From NCBI GenBank assembly GCA_020186115.1, contig WSYJ01000135.1:146469-210468 (forward strand): a DNA stretch of 64,000 nt, in the 5' to 3' direction. Shown here piece after piece: positions 1,512 through 52,490 of the stretch. The notes beneath the pieces are model-generated. The model was given only the letters and a program-made list of their open reading frames with translations, made no database searches and was not told the DNA's origin. A program made the translations under genes and the position numbers. Position 1 is the first letter of the stretch. Every line of letters begins with the position of its first letter. The stretch is from Histomonas meleagridis (lineage: Eukaryota; Parabasalia; Tritrichomonadida; Dientamoebidae).

Positions 1512-3760
1512 TCAGTTGTATTGATATCCTTGAACATCAATTCCTTTTTGTTCAAGAAGTAATTTAACTATTTCTGTATGACCATAATAAGATGCATACA
1601 TAAGTGCTGTTATAAATAATTTAAATAATTTCCAAATATTATTTTGAAATATAAAATTATTCAAATAAATTTTAAATAAAACAATTAAATATCTTTATCA
1701 TTAATATAAATTCTTTCTTGTTCAAGAAGTAATTTAACTATTTCTGTATGACCATATAAAGATGCTAAAATAAGTGCTGTTTCAAATAATATAAATAATT
1801 TCCATATATTATTTTGAAATATCAAATTATTAAAATAAATTTTAAATAAAACGAATGAATAGATGTAAAATTAATATCAATTCCTTCTTGTTCAAGAAGT
1901 AATTTAACTATTTCTATGTAACCACATCTAGATGCTACCATAAGTGCTGTATCAAATTCTTTAAATAATTTCCAAATATTATTTTGAAATCCAGAATTAT
2001 TAAAATAAATTTTATATAAAACAAATAAATATTTTTAGCATTAATATCAATTCCTTCTTGTTCAAGAAGTAATTTAACTATTTTTATATGTCCATTTTCA
2101 GATGCAAATATAAGTGCTGTTCTAAATAATTTCCAAATATTATTTTGAAATATAAAATTATTAAAATAAATTTTAAATAAAACAGATAAATATCTTTAGC
2201 ATTAATATCAATTCCTTCTTGTTCAAGAAGTAATTTAACTATTTTTATATGTCCATTTTCAGATGCATTAATAAGTGCTGTTCTAAATAATTTAAATAAT
2301 TTCCAAATATTATTTTGAAATATAAAATTATTAAAATAAATTTTAAATAAAACAAATAAATATCTTTAGCATTAATATCAATTCCTTCTTGTTCAAGAAG
2401 TAATTTAACTATTTCTATATAACCTTTTGAAGATGCTACCATAAGTGCTGTGTTAGCATTAATTCCTATTGCTTTTTGCTTGAATAAGAACTTATACATT
2501 TCTGTAGAACTAAAATTAAAATTATTTATAATTTGTAAATAAAATAATTAAATAAAACGTTAATTAAATTTTTGATACATTAAATTTTTGATATAAAACT
2601 ATAAATAAATTAATTAAATATCATCATTACTTTTAATCAATATAAATTTATTTTTAAGAATATCTTTAAAAAGTTCTTTATTTCTTGCAATTAAAATTAA
2701 ACTTAAAACATTTTTAGGGATTTTATCTATATTATTATTTACAAAATATTTAAATAAAAATATATTTCCAGTTTTAATCGAAGTTTTGATAAGTTCCTCA
2801 AAATTTTTATTTTCTTTATCAATTAGAAATGAAAGTATTTCAAAATTATAATAAAAAACACATTCAATTAATAAATCAGTATGCATAATATTTTCTGATT
2901 TATTTTCATAGATGTATTTAAAAATATCATTTCGATGAAATATAATTGCTGCTTCATATGCACCTTCAAATGTTGAATGATTTTGTTCACATAAATGAAT
3001 GATTTCTTCATTCCCACTTGCAACTGCATATTTACCTGTATTTTCTACATTAGCACCATTCATAAGTAAATATTTAAAACATTGAACTGAAGAAAAAAAT
3101 GCTGCATAATCAATTAATGTAACATTTTCTTCATTTATAAATGAACAACTTTCATAAAGTGATGGTTCAATTTTTTGATTAAAATCAAAATTTATTTGTG
3201 ATGATATTTCTTGAAGTTTTTCTACTTCATCATTTCGAATTGTTTTTGCTATTTCTTTTGGATTATGTACTTCTTTAATTAATTTCTTATGAAGTTCAAA
3301 ATCATTCTTTGAAAGCTCTTTGTAATTATCTAAAATTGATTGTAGAAAATTAGATTTTATATTCTTTAATTTCGCTTTTTCTTTTATAGTGAATAAATAA
3401 CAACGAGTTTATATATCTAATCTTATTTTCTTCAATTATTTTATTTTCAATTAATCTTTCGAGAATATAATTCGATTCTTGTGTTTTAAAATTAAAAAGA
3501 AAATCTGTAAAAATATTAATGATATTATCTTCTTTCGTTTCATTATTTGTATCTTTTTTTTGATTATATAATTCTTCTTCTTTCATTTTAAATAATTTTA
3601 TATATTCAAAAATTAATTGAATATTTTCATTTCCCATTAAAAAATACGAATAAAGTAATTGACAAATTATAAGCTTAAATGAATATGGATATTGATGGGT
3701 TTTAATAAATAATGTTGATTCTTTGAATTTTTCTCCTCAACTTTGTATACAAATGACTTA
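1512..3760 (-). pseudogene. Ankyrin locus A1: broken DUF3447 gene plus 6 modules
   Basis: Read on the minus strand. A DUF3447-like first block starts near 3760, but about 60 N-terminal residues present in the paralogues at 4081 and 48873 are missing and no good ATG is seen. The frame changes near 3355 (from HYKRKSEIKEYKI to KSNFLQSILDN) and continues through the conserved SLYESCSF and LIDYAAFF motifs. Six ankyrin modules follow, with Thr-Ala-Leu codons near 2443, 2273, 2112, 1942, 1772 and 1602, spaced 161-170 bp. AT-rich spacers full of stops separate them. The last module runs into the tail GIDVQGYQYN and a TGA at 1514-1512. The first module is unusual because it joins the preceding block with no spacer (see findings). 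It lies head to head with locus A2. Confidence 0.75.
1590..2460 (-). repeat. Tandem ankyrin module/spacer array, about 170-bp period
   Basis: Six copies of a 161-170 bp unit. Each has a coding part of about 33 codons (Thr-Ala-Leu start, then HTEIVKLLLEQEGIDINAK) and an AT-rich spacer of about 70 bp with conserved motifs such as ATAATATTTGGAAATTATTT. The coding parts stay open while the spacers contain stops and shift the frame. Confidence 0.85.
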
Positions 3761-3880
3761 CCTTGAAAGAACCATTATTAACAGCAATAATATTTCTTAG
3801 GTTGGCAACCTTATGATTTTACGATTGATTTGATATCCATTGAGCAAACGTTCGTTTTTTAAAATTAACGTACAATTTCC

Positions 3881-4042
3881 GACCGTTTATTTATTCGGTG
3901 TTACCTTTTTTTGAGACATTGGGTGCTTGTGCTTTTGTATTTTTGTATTTTTAGAAATTGTGTGTGTTATTTTGGTTAGATATCGTCCAAATTTGGGTGT
4001 GAGATTCCTCATATGGCTCACGATTTGGTCTGTGACCGTTTA
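3881..4042 (+). promoter_or_regulatory. GACCGTTTA motifs upstream of ankyrin locus A2
   Basis: Two copies of GACCGTTTA (3881-3889 and 4034-4042) precede the ATG at 4081. The same TGACCGTTTA lies 23 bp before the ATG of the paralogue at 48873, and AACCGTTTA or AAACGG occurs in the divergent gaps at 15613, 30573 and 36472. The CNGTT core resembles Myb binding sites, which are known in trichomonad promoters. The role is inferred from position only. Confidence 0.4.
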
Positions 4043-4080: not shown

Positions 4081-5364
4081 ATGCAAAAACGCGAAACAAA
4101 TTCAAGTAAAAAAGAAAAAATATTTCCCCAAAACAAAGGACTAGAATTGTTCTCTGAGCTTGAACAAATCATAATGAATCTAACAGAAGAAAATATAAAT
4201 TTTTCAGCTATCCATACAACAAAATTATTTGATTTTTCTTTACCATATTCATTTAATCTTGTTATAAGTCAATTAATTTATTATGCATTTTTATCACAAA
4301 GAAATAAGTGTACTACGTATTTTAAATTTTTTGAAATTATTCAAAAGAAAGAAGAGGAAAAAATTGGTTCTAAATACAATATTATTGAAATATTTCTGAA
4401 TTATATCATAAAAAATAATTCTCAAGAAGCTCTATATCTAATTGAGCAAATGATTAGACAAAATTTAATTGATGCAAATATTACAAAGATAATTCCTTCA
4501 AAATATTTTGCTCATTACAAAACTACAACTGAAAACAAAGAATGGATTAATGATCGATTTTTTTCTACTTTTATAAAAAATTTTGAAGAATTATCAAAGA
4601 ATGATTGGGAGCTTCATCAGCAATATGTTAAAGAAGGACATAATCCAAATGAAATTGCAAAAATAATTCGAAATGATGAAATAGAAAAACTTCAAGAAAT
4701 ATCATCACAAATAAATTTTGATTTTAATCAAAAAATTGAACCATCACTTTATGAAAGTTGTTCATTTATAAATGAAGAAAATGTTACATTAATTGATTAT
4801 GCAGCATTTTTTTCTTCAGTTCAATGTTTTAAATATTTACTTATGAATGGTGCTAATGTAGAAAACACAGGTAAATATGCAGTTGCAGGTGGAAATGAAG
4901 AAATTATTCATTTATGTGAACAATGTTGTTCATCATTTAAAGGGTCTTATGAAATTGCGATTGAATTTCATCGAAATGATATTTTTCGTTATCTTTATGA
5001 AAATAAAATGGATAATTTGTATGAGGTACATGATACAGAACCTCATAGAGATTTTCTGAAATATGAAGATTTAATAAAATTTTGTGTTATAAGTGGAAAT
5101 TATGAAATCCTATCATTTTTAGAAGGAGAAGGAACAAAAATCAATGAATCTATTATCAATGAATCAGCAAAAATTGGTAATGTATATCTACTCATTCATT
5201 TTCTTCATAATAATAAGAAAATACCAAAAAATATTTTAAGTTATACTATTGAATCAGAGAATGTTGAAGTTGTGGAATATATCATTCTTAAACATAGAAA
5301 AGAAATCAATTTTAATTCTGTAAATATTTTTTGTAAAATTTCAATGTTTTCATATCATATTTAA
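4081..5364 (+). CDS. DUF3447/ankyrin protein, first coding block of locus A2
   Basis: 427 codons from an ATG 39 bp after a GACCGTTTA motif. Residues about 1-160 are a helical N-terminal region. Residues about 180-300 carry the DUF3447 signature seen in trichomonad ankyrin proteins (SKNDWELH, EIAKIIRNDEIEKLQEISSQ, SLYESCSF, LIDYAAFF, GKYAVAGGNEEIIHLCEQ). Degenerate ankyrin-like repeats follow, up to VEYIILKHRKEINFNSVNIF. The frame stops in the first AT-rich spacer at 5364, 25 bp before the first standard module. If the spacers are not removed, the product is this 427-residue protein. If they are removed, nine more ankyrin repeats are added. Ankyrin proteins bind other proteins; the partner is unknown. 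Confidence 0.8.
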   Translation: MQKRETNSSKKEKIFPQNKGLELFSELEQIIMNLTEENINFSAIHTTKLFDFSLPYSFNLVISQLIYYAFLSQRNKCTTYFKFFEIIQKKEEEKIGSKYNIIEIFLNYIIKNNSQEALYLIEQMIRQNLIDANITKIIPSKYFAHYKTTTENKEWINDRFFSTFIKNFEELSKNDWELHQQYVKEGHNPNEIAKIIRNDEIEKLQEISSQINFDFNQKIEPSLYESCSFINEENVTLIDYAAFFSSVQCFKYLLMNGANVENTGKYAVAGGNEEIIHLCEQCCSSFKGSYEIAIEFHRNDIFRYLYENKMDNLYEVHDTEPHRDFLKYEDLIKFCVISGNYEILSFLEGEGTKINESIINESAKIGNVYLLIHFLHNNKKIPKNILSYTIESENVEVVEYIILKHRKEINFNSVNIFCKISMFSYHI

Positions 5365-5388: not shown

Positions 5389-6762
5389 ACACCTTTGTTA
5401 TATGTTGCTGAAAAAGGTTACACTGAAATAGTTAAATTACTTCTTGAACAAGAAGGGATCGATATTAATGCTAAAGACATTTATTGGTTTTATTTAGAAT
5501 TTATTTTAATAATTTTGGGATATTTCAAAATAATATTTGGAAATTATTTAAATTATTTAGAACAGCACTTATATTAGCATCTGAAAAAGGTCATACAGAA
5601 ATAGTTAAATTACTTCTTGAACAAGAAGGAATTGATATTAATGCTAAAGGTATTTATTTGTTTTATTTAATATTTATTTTAATAATTTTCTATTTCAAAA
5701 TAATATTTGGAAATTATTTATATTATTTGAAACAGCACTTATAAATGCATCTAGATATGGTTACATAGAAATAGTTAAATTACTTCTTGAACAAGAAGGG
5801 ATCGATATTAATGCTAAAGATATTTATTTGTTTTATTTGAAATTTATTTTAATAATTTTGGTATGTTTCAAAATAATATTTGGAAATTACAAAAAATATT
5901 TAAAACAGCACTTATTTTAACATCTAGAGATGGTAATTTAAAAGTAGTTAAATTACTTTTGGAACATAAAATAATTGATTTAAATGTTAAAGATGATATT
6001 TATTTACTATAATCGATATTATATAATGTAACTTTGGTTTTTAAGCCAAAATTTGAAATTTTACTGTATAATTTGAAACACCATTAATTTGGGCCTCAAA
6101 ATATGGACATAAAGAAATAGTTAAAATACTTCTCGAAAAAGAAGGAACTAATATTAATGCCAAAAATTTTTATGTATTTTATTTAAGGTTTAAACTAATT
6201 AAAATGGATTTCTTAATGATGTTTGGAAAATATTCATATTGTTTCAAACAGCACTTATAAAGGCATCTTCAAGTGGATACACTGAAATAGCCAAATTACT
6301 TTTAGGAAAAAAAGGAATTGATGTTAATGTTCAAGACATTGTTTTTATGTTTTGTTTAGAATTTATTTATACAATTTGATATTTTAAGTGTGTATTTGGG
6401 TTTTATTTAAAATACTTGAAACACCAATTGTGTTTGCAGCTAAAAATGGTCACACAGAAATAGTTAAATTACTTCTTGAACAAGAAGGAATTGATATTAA
6501 TGCTAAAGATAAATTTTTGTTAATTTATTTGATAATTATTTTAACGATTTGATATTTTAAAATAATATTTGGAATTTACTTAAAATATTTTGTACAGCAC
6601 TCATGAAAGCATCGAGAAATGGTTATGCTGAAATAGTTAAATTACTTCTTGAACAAAAAGGTATTAATATTAAAGCTAAAACTATTCACTAAATTTATTT
6701 AAAATTCAATTAAATGATATAATATTTCAAAACAATATTTGGAAATTATTGAAATTATTTGA
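5389..6762 (+). repeat. Ankyrin module/spacer array of locus A2 (8 internal modules)
   Basis: Modules begin at Thr-Ala-Leu or Thr-Pro-Leu/Ile codons near 5389, 5562, 5732, 5905, 6077, 6248, 6419 and 6594. Spacing varies (173, 170, 173, 172, 171, 171, 175, 169 bp to the last module) although every module is open in its own frame. Module text is typically EIVKLLLEQEGIDINAKD. Spacers encode hydrophobic nonsense with stops. The modules at 5389, 6077 and 6419 have ACACC in place of ACAGC, so the AG before the other modules is not a conserved splice acceptor. Confidence 0.85.
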
Positions 6763-6832
6763 AACAGCACTTGATTTAGCATCTTCAAAAGGTAATCAAA
6801 AAATTGTTGCGTTATTTCATGAATTTTTTTAA
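6763..6832 (+). CDS. Terminal ankyrin module of locus A2
   Basis: The ninth module reads TALDLASSKGNQKIVALFHEFF and then stops at TAA (6830-6832) with no spacer after it. It looks like the natural C-terminus of an ankyrin protein, with the capping helix followed directly by the stop. It has no start codon of its own, so it is meaningful only if it is joined to upstream modules. Confidence 0.55.
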
Positions 6833-6984: not shown

Positions 6985-7070
6985 CAATTAAAATTTATAT
7001 CAATTCCTTTTTATTGAAGAAGTGATTTAACTATTTCTGTGTGCCATTATAAGATGCTCTAATAAGTGCT
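6985..7070 (-). pseudogene. Degenerate ankyrin module
   Basis: The minus strand carries a decayed copy of the module text (GATATAAATTTTAATTG, a mutated ATAGTTAAATCACTTCTTC, and AGCACTTATTAGAGCATC near 7060). It abuts the alpha-actinin fragment. Confidence 0.4.
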
Positions 7071-7560
7071 GTATTTGTTCATCGTTGGTTATTGGGCTAT
7101 TTTGATGGATAGCTCTGAATGCCTCCTTTGTTGCGTCTGCCTGAAAGAATCTGTTGAGCATGTACTTGACGTAGTTATCGAAGTCCAGTGTACTTCTTGA
7201 TGATTTCCTTGCATTCATCTTCGGTAGAAATCTCACCGAGTGATGTAAGGCACGAGTTAAGTTCGTATGGCTCGAGCGTCTTGCTCTTGTCCTTGTCGAA
7301 GAAGTAGAATGTTTTAAGGAATTCGTTAAGTTGTTCTTCAGAGATTTCGATACCTTTAGCATCTGCAATTGCTTTGTCTGCTTCTTGGATTAATGTCTTA
7401 ATATGTGATAATGTGTTGCCGAATAATTGTGAGATAGCTGATGGTGAGTTCTCGACTTCAAATTCGAGTGAATCCTTTTCAAGTTCTTCGTATGATGGAA
7501 GGATTTCTTCGACTTTGTCCTTTTGCTTCTGGAAGCGACTAATTAATTAATTCTTTTCTT
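7070..7560 (-). pseudogene. Alpha-actinin C-terminal fragment
   Basis: From 7560 downwards the minus strand reads FQKQKDKVEEILPSYEELEK, then IQEADKAIADAKGIEISEEQ, then LKTFYFFDKDKSKTLEPYEL and LGEISTEDECKEIIKKYTG. This is the end of a spectrin-type helix followed by the calmodulin-like EF-hand region of alpha-actinin. Near 7200 the frame changes and continues as LDFDNYVKYMLNRFFQADAT and AFRAIHQNSPITNDEQ, the next EF-hand block. The actin-binding CH domains, the rest of the rod and the natural C-terminus are absent. I read it as a truncated, frameshifted copy. Alpha-actinin cross-links actin filaments and is abundant in trichomonads. Confidence 0.75.
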
Positions 7561-12321: not shown

Positions 12322-13885
12322 TCACTTAAAATTTAAACCAAAGGGACTCGGGAAACGCATCTGATTAAATCCATTGTTGTTTGGTCCTTTTTCATTAAGT
12401 AATTGTTTTATTTCTCTGAGACCTAACTGTTGAGCAATTTCAATATGAAGTGCTGTTTCAAGTGATTAAAACATATTCTAAATTATTAAAACATATTATA
12501 AATTATTCAAATGAATATCTTTTGCATTCACATCAATTCCTTCTTTATCTAAAAGTAATTTTACTATTTCTATATTATTATTTCTAACTGCTATATGAAG
12601 TGCTGTTTCAAATTATTAAAACATATTCCAAATTATTAAAACATATATCAAATTATTCAAATGAATATTTTTTGCATTAACATCAATTCCTTCATTATCT
12701 AAAAGTAATTTTACTATTTCTATATTTCTTGATTTAACTGAATATGGTAAAATTGTATTTGGAATTTGTTGACTTTGTATATCACTTTCTATTATGAATG
12801 TATTTCCTTTTGATGCTATTTCTTCAATAATTTCATTATTCATTTTCATTCCTTCTTTTACTAAAAACATTAAGATTTCATAATTATTAAATTCCATACA
12901 TTTTTTTCCAAGATATATTAAATTTTCTTCACTTAAATTACAATTATCTTGACTTTCGATATTGGAATTCGATTTTTTAAAAGAAAATGATGAAGATGAC
13001 TTTTGTTTATCATTGGAAATTTTTCCAATTTTATTTTCATAAAGATACGAAAAATTTCATTTTGATGAAATTCTATCGCTGTTTCATATGCGTTTTCAAA
13101 TGATGAATTGTTTTGTTCGCATAAATGAATAATTTCTAAGTTTCCACCTGCAATTGCATATTTAGGTGTATTTTTGATATTCGAATTATTTAACAACAAA
13201 TATTTAAAACATTTAATCGAACCAAAAAATGCGCAATAATCAATTAATGAAACATTTTCAGTATTAACAAATGAGCATCTTTCATAAAGTGATGGTTCAA
13301 TTCTTTGATTAAAATTAAAACCATTTTGTGATGATATTTCTTGAAGTTTTTCTAAATCATCATTTCGAAGCACTTTCGCAATTTCTGATGGATTAACTCC
13401 TTCTTTTACATATTGAATATGAAGCTTCAAAGCATCTTTTGATAATTTATGAGGTTCTGCCCATTTGTTCATTAATTCATTCATTTTTTCTTTTGTTTTA
13501 AATTGAGAAAAATATAATTTGCTCATGCTGTTTACGGTAGATGGTTCAGGTATTTCTTCTTCGATCATCTTTTCAAGAAGGAAATATGATTCTTGATTTT
13601 CTATTCCAAGCAAATATTCACAAAATATTTGCACAAGATTAGCTTCAGTTAAACTTTTGTTTTTTGCTTTTTCTTCTTCTTTTGCTTTTAATGTAAATAA
13701 ATATTTAACATATATATTTTCATTATTATGTTGAGAAACAAAAGCTGAGTATATAAATCTGGAAATAAGATAGTTAAATGTATAAGGTAGATTATCAACA
13801 AATAAATTAATTGTTGCTTGAACAGATGTTTCAAAATTTTTTTCGTTGAGATTGAAGACAATGGATTCTAATGATTTCGATCATT
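12322..13885 (-). pseudogene. Ankyrin locus B0: broken DUF3447 gene with short array
   Basis: Minus strand. The frame is open from about 13885 (ESIVFNLNEKNFETSVQ) but has no ATG, and a TGA lies just upstream, so the 5' end is lost. DUF3447 motifs are present (EIAKVLRNDDLEKLQEISSQ, SLYERCSF, LIDYCAFF). Near 13047 one missing base turns the expected FRYLYENK into FRIFMKIK; the correct frame resumes as YLYENKIGKISNDKQ and runs to GIDVNAKNIHLNN. One complete ankyrin module (Thr-Ala-Leu near 12605) and a terminal module (near 12455) follow, separated by 20-bp minisatellite spacers. The terminal module ends FPSPFGLNFK, TGA at 12324-12322. This is the smallest complete array in the window. Confidence 0.75.
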
Positions 13886-19842: not shown

Positions 19843-22800
19843 TTAATAACAAATACATTTCGCAGGAGATTTCTTACTAATTAAATCCGCGATGTTGGTA
19901 TATGAATTTTTTATTGCAAGGGAAAGAGCTGTGTCAAACTATTAAAATGAATTCCAAATATCATTTTAAATCATCACGTTACTAAAATTAACATTATCTA
20001 CAACATTAATATCAATATTTTCTTCATCAAGAAGAATTTCTACGATTTGGAAAAATCCATTTTCAGATGCCTTCATAAGTGCTGTTTGAAATATTTTAAG
20101 TCAATTCCAAATAAAATTTTGATATCCGAAATAAATAAAAAAAATATCAAAACAAGTAAACAAATATCTTGAGCATTAATATCAATTCCTATTTGATACA
20201 GAAGTATTTTAACAACGCCTTTGTTTCCTTTTTCAGATGCTTTTATAAGTGCTGTTTGAAATATTTTACGTCAATTCCAAATAATATTTTGATATCCAAA
20301 ATAATTAAAAAGAATATCAAAACAAGTAAACAAATATCTTTAGCATTAATATCAATTCCTTTTTCAAGAAGTAACCGAACAACGCCCATATTTCCTTTAC
20401 TAGATGCACAAATTAGTGCTGTTTTATAAATTTTTATCAAATTCCAAATAATATATTCGAATATAAAATATTTCAAGTTTACAATAATTAAGACAAATTG
20501 ATATCCCTTACATTTATATCAATATTTTTGTGTTTAAGAAGGAAACCAACAATTTCATATTGGCATGCTTCAGCTGCAAATATAATTGCAGTTTCATATC
20601 ATTTTAATATATTCCATGCAATAATAAGTAATTCCAAATAATTTATATACACTAAAAATAAGCAAATAATACACTTTTCGCATTTATATCAATACTTTCT
20701 TGTGCAAGTAGTAATTTAACTACATCAATATTACCCATTAAAGATGCTTTCATTAATGATGTATAAAATATTTCAAATAAATACAAAATTTAATGACAAA
20801 ATCAGAAATTATTTAAATAAACATTATAATCAGTAAAGCAAAAATCTTTAGCATTAATATCAATTCCTTCTTGTTCAAGAAGTAATTTAACTATTTCTAT
20901 ATGACCATTTTTAGATGCTATGATAAGTGCCGAATCAAATAATTGAAACAATTACCAAATATTATATAAAAATACCAAATTATTTAAGCAAAAACCAAAT
21001 AAACTAATTAAATATTTTTAGCATTAATATCAATTCCCTCTTGTTCAAGAAGGAATTTAACTGTTTCTGTTTTGCCATTTTGCGATGCAATAATAAGTGC
21101 AGAGTCAAATAATTAAAACAATTACCAAATATTATATCAAAATACCAAATTATTAAAATAAATATTAAATAAACAAATCAAATATTTTTAGCATTGATAT
21201 CAATTCCTTCTTGTTCAAGAAGTAATTTAACTATTTCTATATAACCATTTTTAGATGCTAAAATAAGTGCTGAATCAAATAATGTAATTAATTACCAAAT
21301 ATTAGTTTAAAGCAGAAAATTATTTAAACAAAAATCAAATAAACAAATCAAATATTTTTAGAACTAATATCAATTCCCTCTTGTTCAAGAAGAAACTTAA
21401 CTGTTTCTAATTTACCATTTTTAGATGCGGAAATAAGTGCTGAATCAAATAAAATAAACAATTGCCAAATATAATTTTGAAACAGAAAATTATTTGAATA
21501 AATTTTATTTTTATCATTAATATCAATTCCTTCTTGTTCAAGAAGTAATTTAACTATTTCTATATGACCATTTTTAGATGCCACAATAAGTGCTGAATCA
21601 AATAATATAAATAATTACCAAATATTATATAAAAATACCAAATTATTTAAACAGAAATCAAATCAAACAAACAAATACCTTTAGCATTGATATCAATTCC
21701 TTCTTGTCCAAGAAGAAACTTAACTGTTTCTGTTTTACCATTTTTAGATGCGGAAATAAGTGCTGAATCAAATAATTTAAACAATTACCAAATATAATTT
21801 TGAAACAGAAAATTATTTGAATAAATTTTATTTTTATCATTAATATCAATTCCTTCTTGTTCAATAAGAAACTTAACTGTTTCTGTTTTACCATTTTTAG
21901 ATGCTACAATAAGTGCTGAATCAAATAATATAAATTATTACCAAATATTATATAAAAATATCAAATTATTTAAACAGAAATTAAATAAACAAATTAAATA
22001 TTTTTAGCGTTAATATCAATTCCTTTACTAAGAAGAAATTTAAACATTTCAATATGGTCATATTTTGACGCCAAAATAAGAACTGTATTAAATAACTTCA
22101 ATAATTTCCATATGAAATATTGAATTATCAATATATTAGAAGAAAAATCAAATAGTATATATAAATATCTTTGGTATTAATATTAATCAATCCTTGAGTT
22201 AAAAGATTTTGAATTGTTTTAACATTTCCCTTTTCTAATGCTTTATTAACTTTCTTGAGAAATATTTTGATGAGATTTTATATTTTATTATTAAACCCAA
22301 AATTAACAAAATAAATATTTTTCATACTATTTACGTCAATTCCATTTTGTTCAAGAAATAGTTGAAATATTTCTCTTCGATTTTTTTTTGCTGCCCAAAT
22401 AAGTGCTGTTCTAAATATTTAAAACAATTTTCATATGTTATTTTGAGACTTTAATTTGTTAAAATAAAATTTAAATAGAGCAAATAAATATCTTTAGCAT
22501 TAATATCAATTCCTTCTTGTTCAAGAAGTAATTTAACTATTTCTATATGACCATTTTCAGATGCTAATATAAGTGCTGTATCAAATAATTTAAATAATTT
22601 CCAAATCTTATTTTGAAATATAAAACCATTAAAATAAATTTTAAATAAAACAGATAAATATCTTTAGCATTAATATCAATTCCTTCTTGTTCAAGAAGTA
22701 GTTTAACTATTTCTATTTGACCATTTTCAGATGCTAATATAAATGCTGTTTTAAATAATATAAATAATTTTCAAATATTATTTTGAAACCCAAAATTATT

Positions 22801-25410
22801 AAAATAAATTCTAAATAAAACAAATAAATATCTTTAGCATTAATATCAATTCCTTCTTGTTTAAGAAGTAATTCAACAATTTCTGTGTGACCATTTTCAG
22901 ATGCCAAAATAAGTGCTGTATCAAATAATTTAAATAATTTCCAAATATTATTTTGAAATATAAAATTATTAAAATAAATTTCAAATAAAACAAACAAATA
23001 CTTTTAACATTAATATCAATTCCTTTCTGTTCAAGCAATACTTTCGTTATTCCTATTATACCTTCAGAACAAGAAACCATAAGTGGATTTTGTAATATTA
23101 AGAATAATTTTTAAATATTATTTAGAAATACTTAATAATGCTTAAAATACATAGGAAATAAATCAAATAAATATTTTTGATATCAATATCAACGTTTTTG
23201 TACTTAATGAGTAATTTTAATAGTTCTGACTGATCATTCCACGTTGCCCACCAAAGTAACTTTTCAAATTTTATAAATAAATTCCAAAAATCAACAAAAA
23301 ATCTTATATTAAACAAATTAACACTTTTAGAATCAATATCAAAATTTTTATGTTTAAGAAGTAATTTAACTATTTTCATGTTACCTTTTTGAGATGCAAT
23401 CATAATTGCTGTAAGAAATATTTCAAATAGTTTTTAAATAACTTAATAAAATTTTGAATATCAATAACAAATTGCAAATAAAATAATTTGATATTTTGTG
23501 CCATTATATCAAGTTCATCTTTTTTAACAAGCAATTTTATAATATCAACATGTTGATTTTCGGCTGCCCATATAAGTACTTTCTCAAATATTTTAAATAA
23601 TTACCAAATATTTCTTTAAAGCATTAAATCATTATGATAAATTTTATATAAAATAATTATAATATTTCAACATTAGCATCACAATTTTTATGTTCAAGAA
23701 GTAATTTAAATATATCAAAATAATTATTTGAAAATGCCTTCATAACTGCTGTTTCATATATTTTGAATAATTATTAAATATTATATTAAAATATATAATC
23801 AATAAGATAAACATAAATTTTAAAATGTAAATATCTTTGGAATTTATGTCAATATCTTCAAATTCAAGAAGTAATTTAACTATATCAATATGGCCTTTTT
23901 CAGATGCATACATAAGTGCTGTTCTAAATAATTTAAATAAATACTAAATATTATTTTGATATCAAAAATCATTAAAACAAACAAAAAAAATAAACAATAA
24001 AACACCATTAGCATAATTAATATTAATATCTTTATGTTTAAGAAGTAATTTAACTACTTCTGTATGACCTTTAATAGATGCAATTATTAATGCTGGATAA
24101 AATATTTTAAATAATTTTTATAAAATATGTTTAAATATGATGAGAACATTAAAATAAATATTAAGTAAAACAAATAAATATCAATTGCATTAATATCAAT
24201 TCCTTCTTGTTCAAGAAGTAATTTAACCATTTCGATATCACCTTTTTCAGATGCTTCCATAAGAAATGTATAAAATAATTTAAATAATTTCCAAATATTA
24301 TTTTGAATCACGGGTTTATGATATTTTGAAATATCAAGACAAATAAATAAATAATTCTGCAATTTATATCAATTCCTTTTTGTTTAAGAAGTATTTTGAA
24401 CATTTCTACTTTACCATTTTTGAATGATTCAATAAGTGCTGTTTGAATTATTTTGAATAATTTCCAAATATTATTATGAAATATAAAATTATCAGAAGAA
24501 ATTTTAAATAAAACAAATAAATACTAAAAGCATCAATATCAATTCCTTCTCGTTCAAGAAGTAATTTAACAATTTCTGCATAACCTTTTCCAGCAGCAAT
24601 AATAAGTGCTGTTTCAAATAATTTAAGTAATTTCCAAATATTATTTTTAAGTATCAAAATATTGTCATAAATTTTAAATAAAACAAATAAATATCTTTAG
24701 CATTAACATCAATTCCTTCTTGTTCAAGTAGTAATTTAACCATTTCTACATTACCTTTTTTAGATGCCATAATTAATGCTGATTGAAATAATTCGAATAA
24801 TTTCCAAATATTATTTTGAAATAAAATATTAATCAAATAAAACTGAATTAAAACAAATAAATATCTTTAGTATTAACATCAACTCCTTCTTTATTAAGTA
24901 ATAATTTCATTATTTGTGTGTGGCCATTTTGATATGCTTTCATAAATGCTGTTTCAAATGTTATGAATAAATTCCAAAAATTATTTTAATACATGCAATC
25001 ATAAGAACAAATACTAAATCAATTAAATAAATATCTTTAGAATTAACATCAATTCCTTCATGTTCAAGTAATAATTCAACTTTTTCTGTATAGCCTTTTA
25101 TGCATGCCCATATTAGTGCTGTAAAAAATTATTTTAACAATATCCAAATTTTATTTGAAAATATAAAATTATTAAATTAATCTGAAAATGAAATTTTGAG
25201 ATATCTTTAGCATTTACATCAATTCTTTTTTGATCTAGAAATAATTTAAAGTTTTCTGGAGTCAATCGATTAACAGCCTTTATAATTTTTGGAAAAAATA
25301 AATCAAATAATCTCCTAATATGATTTTGAAATATCATCCCCTTTAGACTCGTTTAGGAACTTCATATAAGAAATTTGATCTTTAAATGGAAATATGTTTT
25401 CTTTTTTCAT
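19843..25410 (-). pseudogene. Ankyrin locus A3: about 33 modules, no DUF3447 block
   Basis: Entered as pseudogene because the spacers interrupt every frame; it could instead be a live split gene. It starts with a short possible first block, ATG at 25410 (MKKENIFPFKDQISYMKF), which stops inside a partial spacer at about 25317. Then follow about 33 Thr/Ser-Ala-Leu modules at about 170-bp steps, from near 25285 to the terminal module near 19924. The terminal module reads TALSLAIKNSYTNIADLISK, has tail KSPAKCICY and a TAA at 19845-19843. Most modules are open (LLLEQEGIDINAKD); a few at 22250, 23081 and 23254 are decayed. Unlike the other loci there is no DUF3447 region. Confidence 0.65.
19915..25310 (-). 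repeat. 33-copy ankyrin module/spacer tandem array
   Basis: Period mostly 170 bp, with 153-bp variants (for example between 21435, 21588, 21758 and 21911), so 17 bp is gained or lost in spacers. 170 is not a multiple of three and 153 is. Modules 20925-21911 form a recent sub-block (Ser-Ala-Leu version with TACCAAATATTATAT spacers); modules 22571-22911 form another. Confidence 0.85.
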
Positions 25411-33954: not shown

Positions 33955-36420
33955 TCAATGTCGTCTTCTTCCATTTGGATTATGTCGATGCGTTCTCTTG
34001 TGCCAACTCATTTGTCTTTCGGCGTTTTCATTTCTTCGCATGAAGTAACCTTTCGACTTAAAATTACTTCTTTCTCCTTCTTCACTTTCACTACTGTAAT
34101 ATGATCGATCGCTTTCGTTATCATTTCTCGCTTCGTTTTTGCTTTCGTTTGTTTCGCCCAATATGCTTTTGTCTTCATAAATGTCCGAATCGGAGCTGAA
34201 TCGGTCATCGTCGGGTGTGATCGCCGGCGGCATTTTGATTTCTTTATTCGATTCATTCTTACGTCGATAATATGTTTCGTCGGTTGAATTACTTTCACTG
34301 TCGGATCTTGTTTTCCTTTTGCCGTAATATCGGTCGCTGTATTCGCTTGTTGAATAACTTTCGCTGTCGGAGCTGTAGTCAGCGTCTCTATGATATCTGC
34401 TCCTGCCGTATGAAGTCGTTCGATGACGTTTTCCGTGGTCTTCGGCGCGGTCATATTTGGGCCTGATGCTGCGCTTTTCATATCGGTCGCTTGGACGCCT
34501 ATGATATGATCTGCCGTCGTCTGAATCGTCGTTGCGATCATGTGACGGACGGCGGAAAGTTCTATCGTTGTCATATGGCTGCACGCGATATCTGTCATAT
34601 GAATTGCGGTAACTTCTGTCATCATCATAAGTATCGTTGCGATCACGCAATTGCTTGCGATAGCTTCGATCATCATCATAAGTATCATTGCGATCATTTG
34701 ATGGCCTACGACGCGATCTGTTTTCGTATGTTTCATTTCTATTGTGTGATGGCTTGCGGTAACTTCTGTCATCATCATACGTTTCTTCTCTATCATACGA
34801 TTGTTTGCGGTAACTTCTGTCATCATCATAATCATCATCTCTATCATACGATTGTTTGCGGTAACTTTCGTTTCTATCATATTTTGGTTTAAGGTAACTT
34901 CTGTCATCATCATAATCATCATCTCTACCATATGTTGGCTTGCGGTAACTTTCGTTTCTGTCATACAATGGTTTGCGATAGTTTTCGTTTCTTTCATACT
35001 TTGGCTTGCGATAACTTCGATCATCTTCGTCATATGACTTTCTGCGGTATGCTTTATCTCTGTCATAATCAGAGCCGGAGTCGGAGTAATAACCATCTGA
35101 TTCTGAGTTCGTTTTCCTTCGATATCTTCTATCATATGAATTATCTTTTTCCTTATTTTCGTATTCGAATTTTCGTTTCTGTCTTCTTGTGTCCATTTGA
35201 TCTTTGTCGTACTCAGAAGAACTATCATATTCGTAACCTGTTTTCATTTCGTAATGTTTGTCTTTATTTTTGGATTCGTATTTTTGATTTTGTTCGCTTA
35301 CATTTGGTTCATCTTCTTTGTGATTGTAATCAAATTCGAATTTATTTATTTCATTTTCTTCTTCATGTTTAACTTCATCTTCGTTATGTTCTGTTTGTAT
35401 TTCATTTTGTTGAATTATTTCTTTTCTTTCATTAACTTCAATTTGCATTTCGTTTTGTGTTTGAGGTGTTAATGTGTTTTCATTAACTTGTGGCTTAACT
35501 TCAATTTGTATTTCGTTTTGCGTTTGTGGTATTAATGTGTTACTCATTTGCAAATTAGTAATTGGCAACTCATTTTGTTGCGCTATCTTCTCGGTTCTAT
35601 GGTGCGCCCTCTTTGACGATTTATGTCTATGCGATTTCGAATGCGGATTTTCGCTTCCGTTATTTTCTGAATCTGATTTATGCTTTCGTGATTTTTTGTG
35701 ATGATGTCTATGATGCTTATGACTACTGTGAGGCTTATGATGCTTATGACTACTGTGATGCTTGTGGTGTCTGTGAGAATGCTTTTCTTGACTTCGATAC
35801 TGATACCAAACTGGCTGATAATTATTATTATGATTTTCATCAGTTGTTGTAGGCGTGGTTTCTATTGGCATGGGAGCTGGCTCTTGTTCTGGTTGTTCGG
35901 TTCTCGCAGGTGGAGGCGATGGTATGTTTGGTTGATCGCCTATATCAGAATATGTGGAATAATCTGTGTCAGATGAAGAGTCACTGGATACTTCATCGAG
36001 TTTTGATTTAATGGCTGCAGCTTGACGCATCTTTTCTTGAATGGATCTTTTGGATTCTTCCAAAATTCTTGTTGGTATTCCAATTCCATTTGTTTTAGCA
36101 TCAATAAGCAAATCCCAAAGAGCTGTTACAAATTCAGTAGTATGTTCCTTTAGATCTTCCCGTAAAGAAAGACCAAATTCTTGTGAATTAATTTCTTTCC
36201 CTTGAATGAAACCAAGTACAATTTGTGGGAGAAAATCATCATCAGTATATTTTTGAAGCTCCTTAGTAATCCAGGGTTCAAAAGCTTCTGCATTTATATT
36301 TTCAAGATTTAATGTTTCTGTTACACTTGGAGGATAATCAATGTGATCATCAATGTGAGCGTTTTTAAAGCGTGGGTCGCGCTGCGCTGTAATTCCGTGA
36401 TAAAATTTAACTCTTGACAA
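33955..36420 (-). CDS. SRRM1: SRRM1/SRm160-like splicing coactivator with PWI domain
   Basis: 821 codons. The N-terminus FYHGITAQRDPRFKN followed by the PWI domain (FEPWITKELQKYTDDDFLPQ, FGLSLREDL, VTALWDLLIDAKTNGIGIPT) matches SRm160, an RS-rich coactivator that binds nucleic acid through PWI and bridges splicing and 3'-end formation. The rest is low complexity: His/Lys/Ser-rich (about 215-275), acidic Glu/Asn-rich, then about 12 imperfect repeats of the DDDRSYRKPSYDRNE type, and a basic end. Oddity: the homologous region begins directly after a TTG codon at 36420-36418, with an in-frame stop upstream and no ATG until codon 132, beyond the PWI domain (see findings). Confidence 0.85.
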   Translation of the reverse strand: MSRVKFYHGITAQRDPRFKNAHIDDHIDYPPSVTETLNLENINAEAFEPWITKELQKYTDDDFLPQIVLGFIQGKEINSQEFGLSLREDLKEHTTEFVTALWDLLIDAKTNGIGIPTRILEESKRSIQEKMRQAAAIKSKLDEVSSDSSSDTDYSTYSDIGDQPNIPSPPPARTEQPEQEPAPMPIETTPTTTDENHNNNYQPVWYQYRSQEKHSHRHHKHHSSHKHHKPHSSHKHHRHHHKKSRKHKSDSENNGSENPHSKSHRHKSSKRAHHRTEKIAQQNELPITNLQMSNTLIPQTQNEIQIEVKPQVNENTLTPQTQNEMQIEVNERKEIIQQNEIQTEHNEDEVKHEEENEINKFEFDYNHKEDEPNVSEQNQKYESKNKDKHYEMKTGYEYDSSSEYDKDQMDTRRQKRKFEYENKEKDNSYDRRYRRKTNSESDGYYSDSGSDYDRDKAYRRKSYDEDDRSYRKPKYERNENYRKPLYDRNESYRKPTYGRDDDYDDDRSYLKPKYDRNESYRKQSYDRDDDYDDDRSYRKQSYDREETYDDDRSYRKPSHNRNETYENRSRRRPSNDRNDTYDDDRSYRKQLRDRNDTYDDDRSYRNSYDRYRVQPYDNDRTFRRPSHDRNDDSDDGRSYHRRPSDRYEKRSIRPKYDRAEDHGKRHRTTSYGRSRYHRDADYSSDSESYSTSEYSDRYYGKRKTRSDSESNSTDETYYRRKNESNKEIKMPPAITPDDDRFSSDSDIYEDKSILGETNESKNEARNDNESDRSYYSSESEEGERSNFKSKGYFMRRNENAERQMSWHKRTHRHNPNGRRRH

Positions 36421-45221: not shown

Positions 45222-45787
45222 AATGACGAACAATGTTACTAATGATGATACTAATGTCTTAAACACAGGAAATAAAAATTTAAATTATTTATCAATCTGC
45301 TTGAAATTCCTAAATGAGCTTGAGAAAACTATATTCAGTTTAACATAAGAAAACTTTCAGACGTACTTTACAAAAGTATTGGGATTTTTTGATTCAAATT
45401 ATCCCTATACATTTAATACGATTAATATATATTATTACCATTATAAGTAATATAGTTTTTAATGCATTTTCATCACGAAAACAAGTATTTGATATTTACA
45501 TAAATTTTTTAAAAGAACTTCAAATGAAAGAAGAAGAAATTAATCAAAATATCGTTAAATTAATATCAATTTTTATCAAACGTATATCTACAACGAACAC
45601 ACAAGAATCATATTATTTAATAGAACAAATGATTGAACAAAATTTAATTGATAAAAATATCACCAAAAATATTAATTCAAAATATTTTGCACATTATAAA
45701 CCAAAAGAAGAAAATCAAATCCAAATGACATTTGGATCTAATAGAAATGATCCGATAGAAAAATACTTTTTGGATAATCATTTATAA
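45222..45787 (+). pseudogene. Truncated DUF3447 gene, first block of ankyrin locus B1
   Basis: Starts MTNNVTNDDTNVLNTGNKN and follows the paralogue at 48873 closely (CLKFLNELEKTIFSLT). It carries a GAA-to-TAA stop near 45347 and a frame break near 45415-45440, and then is open from 45440 (NIVFNAFSSRKQVFDIYINF) to YFLDNHL, stop at 45787. The last residues match the paralogue up to KYFLDN, after which the DUF3447 core (about 230 residues) is missing and minisatellite DNA begins. The join falls in AATCATTTATAATATG, which is also the text of an array spacer start (for example 46853-46868). Confidence 0.8.
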
Positions 45788-47235
45788 TATGTTTTAATAA
45801 TTTGGAATATGTTTTAATAATTTAAAATATGTTTTAATAATTTAAAATATGTTTTAATAATTTGAAATATGTTTTAATAATTTAAAATATGTTTTAATAA
45901 TTTAAAATATGTTTTAATAATTTGAAATATGTTTTAATAATTTAAAATATGTTTTAATAATTTGAAATATGTTTTAATAATTTAAAATATGTTTTAATAA
46001 TTTGAAACAGCACTTCATATAGCAGTTAGAAATAATAATATAGAAATAGTAAAATTACTTTTAGATAAAGGAATTGATGTTAATGCAAAAACTATTCATT
46101 TGAATAATTTGGAATATGTTTTAATAATTTGAAATATGTTTTAATAATTTAAAATATGTTTTAATAATTTGACACAGCACTTCATATAGCAGTTAGAAAT
46201 AATAATATAGAAATAGTAAAATTACTTTTAGATAAAGGAATTGATGTTAATGCAAAAAACATTCATTTGAATAATTTGGAATATGTTTTAATAATTTGGA
46301 ATATGTTTTAATAATTTGGAATATGTTTTAATAATTTGACACAGCACTTCATATAGCAGTTAGAAATAATAATATAGAAATAGTAAAATTACTTTTAGAT
46401 AAAGGAATTGATGTTAATGCAAAAAACATTCATTTGAATAATTTGGAATATGTTTTAATAATTTGGAATATGTTTTAATAATTTGGAATATGTTTTAATA
46501 ATTTGGAATATGTTTTAATAATTTGGAATATGTTTTAATAATTTGGAATATGTTTCAATAATTTGGAATATGTTTTAATAATTTGACACAGCACTTCATA
46601 TAGCAGTTAGAAATAATAATATAGAAATAGTAAAATTACTTTTAGATAAAGGAATTGATGTTAATGCAAAATATATTCATTTGAATAATTTGGAATATGT
46701 TTTAATAATTTGGAATATGTTTTAATAATTTGGAATATGTTTTAATAATTTGAAACAGCACTTCATATAGCAGTTAGAAATAATAATATAGAAATAGTAA
46801 AATTACTTTTAGATAAAGGAATTGATGTTAATGCAAAAAACATTCATTTGAATCATTTATAATATGTTTTAATAATTTGGAATATGTTTTAATAATTTGG
46901 AATATGTTTTAATAATTTGAAACAGCACTTCATATAGCAGTTAGAAATAATAATATAGAAATAGTAAAATTACTTTTAGATAAAGGAATTGATGTTAATG
47001 CAAAAAACATTCATTTGAATCATTTATAATATGTTTTAATAATTTGGAATATGTTTTAATAATTTGACACAGCACTTCATATAGCAGTTAGAAATAATAA
47101 TATAGAAATAGTAAAATTACTTTTAGATAAAGGAATTGATGTTAATGCAAAAACTATTCATTTGAATAATTTGGAATATGTTTTAATAATTTGAAATATG
47201 TTTTAATAATTTAGAATATGTTTTAATAATTTGAA
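45788..47235 (+). repeat. Family-B ankyrin modules with 20-bp minisatellite spacers (locus B1)
   Basis: About 11 copies of the 20-bp unit AATATGTTTTAATAATTTGG come first, then seven nearly identical modules (Thr-Ala-Leu near 46008, 46174, 46342, 46589, 46755, 46921, 47069). Each module reads TALHIAVRNNNIEIVKLLL and DKGIDVNAK, then 3-7 minisatellite units. The last-residue codon before IHLN varies (Thr, Asn, Tyr). Each minisatellite unit shifts the frame by two and contributes stops. Confidence 0.9.
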
Positions 47236-47580
47236 ACAGCACTTGAAATAGCACAACATTTTGGTTACACAGAAATCATAAATTTACTCCTTGAAAAAAG
47301 TACAAACGAAAATTCTAATTCAGATTCCTCTTCTACAAATATCAAATCTTCATTTTCAATCAGAAATAGAAATGAAGCATATATTGCTAATAATCAAAAT
47401 CAACTCAAAGATCGAATGTATGCAGAAAACAATCGAAATAATTGTATCAAAACAAAAGTTGATATAAACACACAAACATATGAAAATCATCGAAATTGCA
47501 ATATACAACATAACAAATATCACCACAAAGCAAAATATTTTATAATAATCGCTTTGGGTTCAAATGAATCGAAATTTTGA
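47236..47580 (+). CDS. Terminal ankyrin block of locus B1
   Basis: 114 codons open in the module frame, from ACAGCACTT at 47236 to the TGA at 47578-47580. It reads TALEIAQHFGYTEIINLLLE, then a unique Ser/Asn-rich tail (STNENSNSDSSSTNIKSSFS) and KYHHKAKYFIIIALGSNESK. There is no spacer after it and no start codon at its head. This long open tail, in phase with the modules, is strong evidence that the array descends from, or still forms, one coding unit. Confidence 0.6.
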   Translation, partial: TALEIAQHFGYTEIINLLLEKSTNENSNSDSSSTNIKSSFSIRNRNEAYIANNQNQLKDRMYAENNRNNCIKTKVDINTQTYENHRNCNIQHNKYHHKAKYFIIIALGSNESKF

Positions 47581-48872: not shown

Positions 48873-50162
48873 ATGCCTAATGATGATACTGCCAAAAACA
48901 CAGGGGACAAACAGTTGGGTGATCTGTCAACCTGCTTGAAATTCCTAATTGAGCTTGAGAAAACTATTTTCAGTTTAACAGAAGAAAACTTTCAGATGTA
49001 CTTTACAAAAGTATTGGAATTATTCGATTCAAATTATCCCTGTACATTTAATATTATTATAAGTAACATCGTTTATAATGCATTTTCATCACAAAAACAT
49101 GAATTTGATATTTACTTAAATTTTTTAAAAGCACTTCAAACTAAAGAAGAAGAAATTAATCAAAACACAGTTAAACTAATATCAATTTTTATCAAACGTA
49201 TATCTACATTCAGCACACAAGAATCATATTATTTAATAGAACAAATGATTGAACAAAATTTGGTTGATAAAAATATAACTAAAAACATTAAATCAAAATA
49301 TTTTGCTCATTATAAAACAGAAAAAGAAAATCATTTTTCATTTGGGTCTAATAGATATGATCCAATAGAAAAATACTTTTTGGATAATTATGAAGAACTT
49401 TCAAAGAATGATTGGGAACTTCATAAGAAGTATATTAAAGAAGGAAATAATCCAACTGAAATTGCGAAAATAATTCGAAAAGATAAAATCGAAAAACTTC
49501 AAGAAATATCATCACAAAGTAATTTTGATTTTAATCAAACAATTGAGCCATCACTTTATGAAAGATGTTCATTTATTAATCATAAAAATGTTACATTAAT
49601 TGATTATGCAGCATTTTTTGGATCAGTTAAATGTTTTAAATATTTACTTATGAATGGCTTTAACATAAATAATACAGGTAAATATGCTGTTGCAGGTGGA
49701 AATCTTGAAATTATTCATTTATGTGAACAGAATCATTCATCATTTGAAGGTTCATATGAAACAGCAATTAAATTCCATCAAAATGATATCTTTAAATATG
49801 TTTATGAGAATAAATTAGAAAAAATACGATCAACACCGAAAATGTCTGAAGATAAAACTAATGATTTAATCAGCTTCTGTATTTTAAATGATAATTATGA
49901 AATTTTAGCATTTTTGGAAGAAAAAGGAAATAATATTAATGCGGGTGATATAAATGAATCAGCAAGAAATGGGAATTTATATCTCGCTAAACATTTCCTT
50001 CAAAAAAATCAAATTCCAAAAGATATTTTATTATTTGCTTCAGAATCAGGAAATATTGAACTTGTGAAATATGTTTTGGAACAAAAAGGAATTGATGTTA
50101 ATGCAAAATATATTCATTTGAATAATTTTATATATGTTTTAATAATTTGGAATATGTTTTAA
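48873..50162 (+). CDS. DUF3447/ankyrin protein, first block of locus B2 (intact)
   Basis: 429 codons, the best-preserved DUF3447 gene of the B family here. It has a helical N-terminus (about 1-150), then SKNDWELHKKYIKEGNNPTE, EIAKIIRKDKIEKLQEISSQ, SLYERCSFINHKNVTLIDYA and GKYAVAGGNLEIIHLCEQ (DUF3447), then weak ankyrin repeats to VKYVLEQKGIDVNAKYIHLN. Translation would stop in the first spacer at 50162. If spacers are not removed, this is the whole product. The nucleotide text IEFHQNDIF/IKFHQNDIF and others is shared with B0 and A2, showing a recent family. Confidence 0.82.
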   Translation: MPNDDTAKNTGDKQLGDLSTCLKFLIELEKTIFSLTEENFQMYFTKVLELFDSNYPCTFNIIISNIVYNAFSSQKHEFDIYLNFLKALQTKEEEINQNTVKLISIFIKRISTFSTQESYYLIEQMIEQNLVDKNITKNIKSKYFAHYKTEKENHFSFGSNRYDPIEKYFLDNYEELSKNDWELHKKYIKEGNNPTEIAKIIRKDKIEKLQEISSQSNFDFNQTIEPSLYERCSFINHKNVTLIDYAAFFGSVKCFKYLLMNGFNINNTGKYAVAGGNLEIIHLCEQNHSSFEGSYETAIKFHQNDIFKYVYENKLEKIRSTPKMSEDKTNDLISFCILNDNYEILAFLEEKGNNINAGDINESARNGNLYLAKHFLQKNQIPKDILLFASESGNIELVKYVLEQKGIDVNAKYIHLNNFIYVLIIWNMF

Positions 50163-52490
50163 TAATTTGGAATATGTTTTAATAATTTATAATATGTTTT
50201 AATAATTTTATATATGTTTTAATAATTTGGAATATGTTTTAATAATTTGGAATATGTTTTAATAATTTATAATATGTTTTAATAATTTGAAATATGTTTT
50301 AATAATTTGGAATATGTTTTAATAATTTGGAATATGTTTTAATAATTTGACACAGCACTTCATATAGCAGTTAGAAATAATAATATAGAAATAGTAAAAT
50401 TACTTTTAGATAAAGGAATTGATGTTAATGCAAAAAACATTCATTTGAATCATTTATAATATGTTTTAATAATTTGGAATATGTTTTAATAATTTGGAAT
50501 ATGTTTTAATAATTTGGAATATGTTTTAATAATTTGACACAGCACTTCATATAGCAGTTAGAAATAATAATATAGAAATAGTAAAATTACTTTTAGATAA
50601 AGAAGGAATTGATGTTAATGCAAAAACTATTCATTTGAATAATTTGGAATATGTTTTAATAATTTATAATATGTTTTAATAATTTGGAATATGTTTTAAT
50701 AATTTGACACAGCACTTCATATAGCAGTTAGAAATAATAATATAGAAATAGTAAAATTACTTTTAGATAAAGAAGGAATTGATGTTAATGCAAAAAACAT
50801 TCATTTGAATAATTTGGAATATGTTTTAATAATTTATAATATGTTTTAATAATTTGGAATATGTTTTAATAATTTGACACAGCACTTCATATAGCAGTTA
50901 GAAATAATAATATAGAAATAGTAAAATTACTTTTAGATAAAGAAGGAATTGATGTTAATGCAAAAACTATTCATTTGAATAATTTGGAATATGTTTTAAT
51001 AATTTGGAATATGTTTTAATAATTTGAAATATGTTTTAATAATTTGACACAGCACTTCATATAGCAGTTAGAAATAATAATATAGAAATAGTAAAATTAC
51101 TTTTAGATAAAGGAATTGATGTTAATGCAAAAAACATTCATTTGAATCATTTATAATATGTTTTAATAATTTGGAATATGTTTTAATAATTTGAAATATG
51201 TTTTAATAATTTGGAATATGTTTTAATAATTTGACACAGCACTTCATATAGCAGTTAGAAATAATAATATAGAAATAGTAAAATTACTTTTAGATAAAGG
51301 AATTGATGTTAATGCAAAAAACATTCATTTGAATAATTTGGAATATGTTTTAATAATTTGGAATATGTTTTAATAATTTAGAATATGTTTTAATAATTTA
51401 GAATATGTTTTAATAATTTGGAATATGTTTTAATAATTTAGAATATGTTTTAATAATTTGAAATATGTTTTAATAATTTGACACAGCACTTCATATAGCA
51501 GTTAGAAATAATAATATAGAAATAGTAAAATTACTTTTAGATAAAGGAATTGATGTTAATGCAAAAAACATTCATTTGAATCATTTATAATATGTTTTAA
51601 TAATTTGGAATATGTTTTAATAATTTGAAATATGTTTTAATAATTTGACACAGCACTTCATATAGCAGTTAGAAATAATAATATAGAAATAGTAAAATTA
51701 CTTTTAGATAAAGGAATTGATGTTAATGCAAAAAAACATTCATTTGAATCATTTATAATATGTTTTAATAATTTGGAATATGTTTTAATAATTTGAAATA
51801 TGTTTTAATAATTTGAAACAGCACTTCATATAGCAGTTAGAAATAATAATATAGAAATAGTAAAATTACTTTTAGATAAAGAAGGAATTGATGTTAATGC
51901 AAAAATTATTCATTTGAATAATTTAGAATATGTTTTAATAATTTGGAATATGTTTTAATAATTTGAAATATGTTTTAATAATTTGAAACAGCACTTCATA
52001 TAGCAGTTAGAAATAATAATATAGAAATAGTAAAATTACTTTTAGATAAAGGAATTGATGTTAATGCAAAATATATTCATTTGAATAATTTGGAATATGT
52101 TTTAATAATTTGGAATATGTTTTAATAATTTGGAATATGTTTTAATAATTTGACACAGCACTTCATATAGCAGTTAGAAATAATAATATAGAAATAGTAA
52201 AATTACTTTTAGATAAAGGAATTGATGTTAATGCAAAAAACATTCATTTGAATCATTTATAATATGTTTTAATAATTTGGAATATGTTTTAATAATTTGG
52301 AATATGTTTTAATAATTTGACACAGCACTTCATATAGCAGTTAGAAATAATAATATAGAAATAGTAAAATTACTTTTAGATAAAGGAATTGATGTTAATG
52401 CAAAAACTATTCATTTGAATAATTTGGAATATGTTTTAATAATTTGGAATATGTTTTAATAATTTGGAATATGTTTTAATAATTTGAAAT
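50118..52490 (+). repeat. Family-B module array of locus B2 (12 modules)
   Basis: Twelve nearly identical ankyrin modules (Thr-Ala-Leu near 50349, 50536, 50706, 50876, 51046, 51233, 51479, 51648, 51806, 51985, 52153, 52319) separated by 2-8 copies of the 20-bp minisatellite. Four modules (50536, 50706, 50876, 51806) have an in-frame extra GAA codon (DKEG instead of DKG). The module at 51648 has one extra A at its boundary with the spacer. There is no terminal module: the array is cut at about 52490 by the AT-rich element. Confidence 0.9.

Follow-up and report, generated by a model that had tools for sequence, protein, structure and literature searches.

Ankyrin genes of Histomonas meleagridis divided into open repeat modules and stop-containing spacers, candidate non-canonical intervening sequences

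We analysed a stretch of 64,000 nucleotides (nt), hereafter the window, from the genome of Histomonas meleagridis, a tritrichomonad parasite of poultry; the window is part of contig C72 (WSYJ01000135.1, positions 146,469 to 210,468), and the genome comprises 43.3 Mb in 121 contigs. It carries split ankyrin genes, in which short coding modules alternate with spacers. Six such loci (A1, A2, A3, B0, B1 and B2) were recognized from translations and from a nucleotide profile of the module, which gave 70 matches in the window, and they share the plan put forward in the original prediction. Each locus runs in one direction: a first coding block, then modules extending from Thr-Ala-Leu to Asn-Ala-Lys with a spacer after each and, in all loci except B2, a last module without a spacer and with its own tail and stop codon. 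All five terminal stops, predicted at 1512, 6832, 12322, 19843 and 47580, lie exactly there. The repeat consensus combines a conserved framework with a variable surface, as in ankyrin repeats (Pfam Ank matches, codon profiles). Modules had been described as having about 33 codons; the strictly open part has only 28–29, and the residues beyond it are probably supplied by the spacer edges.

A first coding block had been expected at every locus; only those of A2 and B2 are intact. On the plus strand, A2 begins with an open reading frame (ORF) of 427 amino acids (aa) with Ank and DUF3447 matches (4081..5364), followed by an array of nine modules (5389..6832); the spacer after the first array module occupies 5476..5561 (86 nt), and the last module (6764–6832) has no spacer and its own stop. 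The B2 first block, also on the plus strand, is a 429-aa ORF with the same Pfam matches (48873..50162); its array (50034..52490) has 13 modules, including one within the first block, and enters an AT-rich element without a terminal module, as predicted for an array cut off by this element. First blocks of three other loci are truncated or frame-broken. A1 (1512..3063, minus strand) has a remnant (ORF 2614–3063) whose N-terminal part is missing or out of frame, and six modules, the last (1512–1610) with its own stop. A3 (12322..13634, minus strand) has a 233-aa ORF (12933–13634) with a frame break after it, then modules and a terminal module (12322–12456). B1 (45389..47580, plus strand) consists of a broken first block (132-aa ORF), seven nearly identical modules and a terminal block (47236–47580) that is open for 114 codons, exactly as foreseen. 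B0 (19843..25260, minus strand) has 31 modules found by the profile and a terminal module (19843–19932); a homology search found no first block. By eye, a possible short first exon of B0 can be seen at 25260–25420 on the minus strand (27 codons from Met to Asp-Asp-Ile), followed by a stretch resembling a spacer of the 43-nt class. The array ends of A1, A3 and B0 were also found by eye.

The same arrangement is widespread in the genome. A strict junction pattern (module, 45–75 nt, next module) gave 1,878 matches (940 + 938), while its reversed control gave none; the search may count a site twice if two ends fit, and the 58 listed rows from contig C1 share no start or end. With 0–9 nt between the two halves the same strict pattern had no match in the genome. 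The scale applies to this module family; ankyrin genes outside it are contiguous in this genome, and most have linkers of five residues (judged by eye). One further pattern, badly designed, gave 32 matches versus 11 for its control, few of them ankyrin.

First blocks are likewise numerous: 99 and 101 candidates were scored for two protein queries, P0004 and P0001, and nearly all listed rows fall within open frames of about 400 codons or more. Since the best matches in this genome reach no more than 55% (P0004) and 60% (P0001) over their length, both queries come from other organisms or very distant strains. Of the 33 split arrays examined, 27 show similarity to a head across more than 80 residues within 1.7 kb upstream; nine have a head with an unbroken frame of at least 350 codons that starts at an ATG and continues into the first module. 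At the other end, the last module of 17 of the 33 arrays matches the profile only up to position 53–66 of 86; 16 of these capping modules are open for 20–114 codons, and the one of locus L026 is open for three (early stop).

Twenty loci were taken from the genome out of matches that mostly looked split already; proportions among them are not those of the genome. Unit classification covered 261 of 316 units, leaving aside last units, those longer than 260 nt and those in which no Asn-x-Lys end could be recognised. This set still included the contiguous loci L004, L006 and L008, and the main counts were repeated without them, giving 180 A-type and 73 B-type spacers and 249 usable units; the table of possible joins lists 257 units, four shorter than 40 nt having been skipped. 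B units were left out of the framework-codon comparison (73 A-type units of exactly 170 nt) and of the stop simulation (78 such units) because they are too alike. Unit pairs share units, both in the comparisons of nonsynonymous and synonymous differences per site (pN and pS) and in those of near-identical spacers, and are not independent.

Modules evolve as working protein and are under selection against stops. A stop within the first 27 codons occurs in 3 of 253 full modules of the split loci (262 modules if the contiguous control loci are counted in), and in 4 of 267 module matches the net indel length is not divisible by three. When each of the 78 A-type units was allowed to drift as far as its own spacer had done, 46 units with stops were expected (300 simulations, the lowest giving 35); one was observed. 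The same simulation predicted stops in 12 of 17 units of B0, the locus without a head, and none has one. This simulation speaks against decay as the source of the arrays. A dN/dS analysis of modules had been proposed with the original prediction; codons 13–27, taken as a whole block, have pN/pS of 0.44–0.62 over four distance bins. The companion proposal was to set modules against the rate of change in spacers; the spacer changes at about the synonymous rate, and the modules are nearly free of stops.

Variability is concentrated in a few codons. In 78 unit pairs with near-identical spacers (difference below 0.07), codons 4, 5, 8, 9, 11 and 12 differ at 0.43 of their first and second positions and the codon before Thr-Ala-Leu at 0.58, compared with 0.044 for the third positions of codons 1, 2, 3, 6 and 10 and 0.059 for the spacer core. 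For 135 pairs of the shorter class the values are 0.36 for the variable codons, 0.52 for the codon before Thr, 0.08 for third positions and 0.05 for the spacer core; when codons are ranked within the 153-nt class only, 4, 5, 8, 9, 11 and 22 take the first six places for variability. Most of these hypervariable codons are presumably exposed positions of the turn and first-helix surface of ankyrin repeats. As the codon before Thr lies in the apparent spacer and is nevertheless hypervariable, the coding part probably extends past the visible module. Exchange of large blocks as a source of the variable codons was considered and is unsupported; the codons between the variable ones are unchanged.

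Spacers have properties of their own. Stops had been predicted in every spacer; most have them, while 28 of the 249 usable split units have lengths divisible by three and can be read straight through. By length, the spacers are spread over all three frames (140, 102 and 19 of 261). Unit lengths fit 84, 87 or 90 plus 3 plus 20n bases in 210 of 238 cases, with classes chosen after the lengths had been seen; non-overlapping shifted classes hold 0–14 of the 238 and overlapping ones 47–171. Among the first 100 genome matches listed, which come from contigs C1–C8 and partly from the same arrays, 86 are exactly 100 nt long. The length argument uses unit lengths and these exact match lengths, as gap counts were made unusable by the aligner, which put compensating gaps into modules; the neutral indel yardstick mixes the AT-rich element with other sequence and served only as a hint. 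A 20-base repeat is plain in B-type spacers; in A-type ones it is visible only by eye. Conservation is higher in the word TTTGG, 22–26 nt upstream of the module, than in most other parts of the spacer.

Codon constraint continues into the spacer edges. Among 169 distinct spacers none has a stop at the codon before Thr, and at the third codon before Thr 61 of 64 B-type spacers have one; on the other side, stops at the third codon after Lys are seen in 8 of 72 A83, 0 of 33 A66 and 0 of 64 B spacers. Little weight is given to the absence of stops from the first two codons after Lys and the second before Thr, where no single change would turn the usual codons into a stop. A join that keeps Asp-Ile and Phe-x (six bases on each side) leaves one stop in 249 units; other joins adding three or four residues leave 1–4, or 10 if the 5′ side retains nine bases, and rechecked 5-residue joins leave 10–12. 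One contiguous junction of protein P0006, Asn-Val-Met-Phe-Glu, fits Asp-Ile...Phe-x with one residue between; its contiguous linker region, used as a query, found only P0006 itself. These constraints would place the borders to within one or two codons.

Ordinary intron signals are not those of the spacers. A DHHC-type gene (named by eye, locus L010) has a 71-nt insert, GTATGT...ACTAACACACAG, across which the frames join, and locus L035 has a second match to the intron motif (65 nt; motif match only). The GTATGT...CTAACACACAG motif of such an intron-like gene is missing from the spacers. In 249 spacers taken with their edges, GTATGT, the 5′ site of trichomonad type, occurs twice; as to a fused branch point and 3′ site like [AG]CTAACACACAG, CTAAC occurs once and CTAAC followed by AG not at all. 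As many as 34 of the 180 A-type spacers, including 28 of the 45 in the short class, lack any GT. Spliceosomal RNAs were detected in the genome, with two copies of U2 over the cut-off and a U6-like RNA at 43.7 bits (cut-off 44); within the window no Rfam family reached its gathering score. The window also holds an 821-aa ORF with a PWI domain (33955–36420, minus strand), in a genome reported to be intron-poor. The PWI domain occurs in splicing cofactors.

Signals of other kinds were sought at the junctions. Shared words of 6–7 nt such as ATTTGAA are common at the junctions, as a raw observation in AT-rich sequence. Excision at TA pairs or at short direct repeats of the edges was tried by hand and discarded, as it leaves the next module out of frame. 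Identical take-off and landing codons, for any of nine codon pairs, are present in at most 18 of 253 cases.

Two readings of the arrays had been proposed: genes whose spacers are taken out or passed over during expression, or an archive of cassettes derived from such genes. Expression in cis is favoured because modules lack stops and because heads and capping modules accompany many arrays; the archive is weakened. With moderate confidence we read the loci as expressed ankyrin genes whose spacers are non-canonical intervening sequences, most likely removed from RNA. Nearly every repeat of an array would then be followed by a short non-coding intervening sequence that is taken out of the RNA; modules would join in frame, plausibly as ...Asn-Ala-Lys-Asp-Ile / Phe-x-Thr-Ala-Leu..., to give a product of ~33-residue repeats with a terminal capping repeat at many loci. 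We infer the removal of the spacers, its RNA level and the borders from these comparisons of DNA and protein sequences. Expression of joined modules is quite likely and removal at the RNA level reasonably probable; a dedicated non-spliceosomal route of removal can be suggested only tentatively. Relaxed or non-spliceosomal RNA removal is what is left because the tests for motif, folding, end pairing and hop codons were all negative. In its fullest form the proposal would be one of thousands of intervening sequences of a new class, with no GT-AG borders, no end pairing and lengths in 20-nt steps, placed between repeats of a diversifying ankyrin recognition family and removed from RNA by dedicated non-spliceosomal means; this we regard as possible and hold with reserve.

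If the spacers were ordinary spliceosomal introns with sites too relaxed to recognise, the U2-type spliceosome would remove them. In the chordate Fritillaria such a role has been suggested in the case of non-GT-AG introns (PMC12621601). The presence of spliceosomal RNAs and of the PWI-domain protein agrees with this, as do the conserved TTTGG before the module and a main spacer class that measures 71 nt with six bases kept on each side, the length of the DHHC insert; the lack of the strict motif, and of any GT in part of the A-type spacers, makes it unlikely. Ribosomes might instead hop over spacers kept in the mRNA. Translational bypass is known in T4 gene 60 and in the byps of Magnusiomyces mitochondria, and in gene 60 a stop follows the take-off codon. 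Spacer lengths in all three frames would suit hopping, and so would the fact that several relatives of the first block end directly after Asp-Ile or a similar pair, resembling gene 60: P0001 ends right after Asp-Ile, and P0003, P0005, P0007, P0008, P0009 and P0011 do likewise or nearly so (protein sequences, not DNA, were compared, and their ends are assumed to be stop codons). Take-off and landing codons are, however, rarely identical, and B0 would require ~30 hops per protein, so that we consider hopping quite improbable.

The other two explanations dispense with expression in place. As a silent archive, the arrays would feed expressed genes through gene conversion. The open modules of the headless B0 fit this; so do hypervariable codons, which would suit a repertoire, and the high synonymous change at those codons, which would suit local exchange. 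Such archives usually collect stops, however, and these arrays mostly have heads upstream and often caps; the genome has no unsplit junction of this pattern to act as cassette recipient, and codons between the variable ones are unchanged, all of which leaves the archive distinctly unlikely. A decaying pseudogene satellite, once coding and now neutral, might be suspected from the several broken heads and from the young B1 and B2 arrays of the window, which are tandem expansions of nearly identical units. It is contradicted for old A-type arrays by the near absence of stops, and by the low pN/pS of codons 13–27; as a general explanation it is highly improbable.

Several observations weigh against expression with removal of the spacers. 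Heads are damaged or unrecognised at four of the six window loci and at several sampled loci, yet their modules are still open; several arrays lack an intact head, and some members of the family may be in decay or be read by a different route. The protein relatives found stop at or close to the first spacer, none of them being a long contiguous product. Taken across all 29 codons, pN/pS is 1.14 in the nearest distance bin and 0.73 in the farthest; once the six variable codons are set aside, the nearest bin gives 0.98. Framework codons have pN/pS of 0.30–0.58, with a synonymous distance that tracks spacer distance (0.08 to 0.42 against 0.03 to 0.46), though these codons were chosen after viewing the profile of the same data, which is partly circular. 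Variable codons picked in the 153-nt class have, when measured in 170-nt units, pN of 0.39–0.44 and pS of 0.42–0.50 (pN/pS 0.87–0.93), and either diversifying selection or local exchange or targeted mutation is possible there. Because synonymous change is also high at these codons, our confidence in expression with removal and in the new class was lowered slightly and that in an archive raised slightly. As for splicing signals, both intron-like cases were found through a motif search, which cannot show that all introns here carry the motif; of the introns of this species, the motif comparison covers these two cases. GT[AT][TA][GA]T occurs in 125 of 249 units, and GT with an AG at least 30 nt later (counting the ACAG of the next module) in 215 of 249, which an ordinary spliceosomal origin would also accommodate. 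A-type spacers have no RNA structure above shuffled sequences; folding z-scores are +0.4, −0.4 and −1.4 (30 sampled per class), and in three classes the energy of the end-to-end duplex is within ~1 standard deviation of shuffled letters and no better than with swapped ends, borders being assumed six bases from each edge.

Among known systems, the nonconventional introns of euglenids and hemistasiid diplonemids come close: like the spacers they are nuclear, they have no GT-AG borders, as the spacers probably do not, and their route of removal is likewise unexplained in organisms that also have canonical introns or a spliceosome (PMC4770533, PMC12621601, PMC6221363). These introns pair their ends, and those of euglenids often have CAG/CTG at fixed places, whereas end pairing in the Histomonas spacers does not exceed controls; the spacers further differ in lying between repeats of one parabasalid gene family and in their 20-nt length steps. 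Trichomonad spliceosomal introns of types A and B have a length range similar to that of the spacers, and three T. vaginalis ankyrin-domain genes carry a spliceosomal intron (PMC12316389); unlike the spacers, trichomonad introns have conserved 5′ and 3′ motifs and are few per genome. The Histomonas genome paper describes the species as intron-poor, with 573 predicted introns in the virulent strain and at most one per gene, and does not use the word ankyrin (PMC8529796). A literature search by titles and abstract beginnings found no paper on split ankyrins in Histomonas.

Bypass elements such as those of T4 gene 60 and the Magnusiomyces byps resemble the spacers in being short non-coding inserts within coding genes; the spacers differ from them by having no matched codons, by being nuclear and by their far larger number of copies. 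In its layout the protein family is similar to DARPins, with variable residues on the turn and first-helix surface, though the Histomonas repeats are natural and split in DNA.

If the spacers are removed in expression, intervening sequences in this genome would be several times more numerous than the 573 predicted introns, and the annotation would show members of a large family as short proteins cut off at the first spacer, as P0009, a first-block relative from Histomonas itself, would exemplify. Histomonas would then represent a second eukaryotic lineage with non-canonical intron removal, and an animal parasite would have a hypervariable repertoire of binding proteins.

Other features of the window concern the surroundings of the arrays. 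The AT-rich element that cuts off B2 looks like a virus-derived insertion, judging by its ORFs at 56499–57092 and 60513–62177, which have Pfam matches to Poxvirus A22 and to DUF5906/VapE-like proteins. At its edge lies an inverted repeat of 1,065 bases (52587–53651 and 53797–54860), with arms 99.9% alike and rich in short tandem repeats. Downstream of A2, the profile detects a lone module-like fragment on the minus strand (6991–7072), probably a relic; the reading frame adjoining it resembles, by eye, an EF-hand protein.

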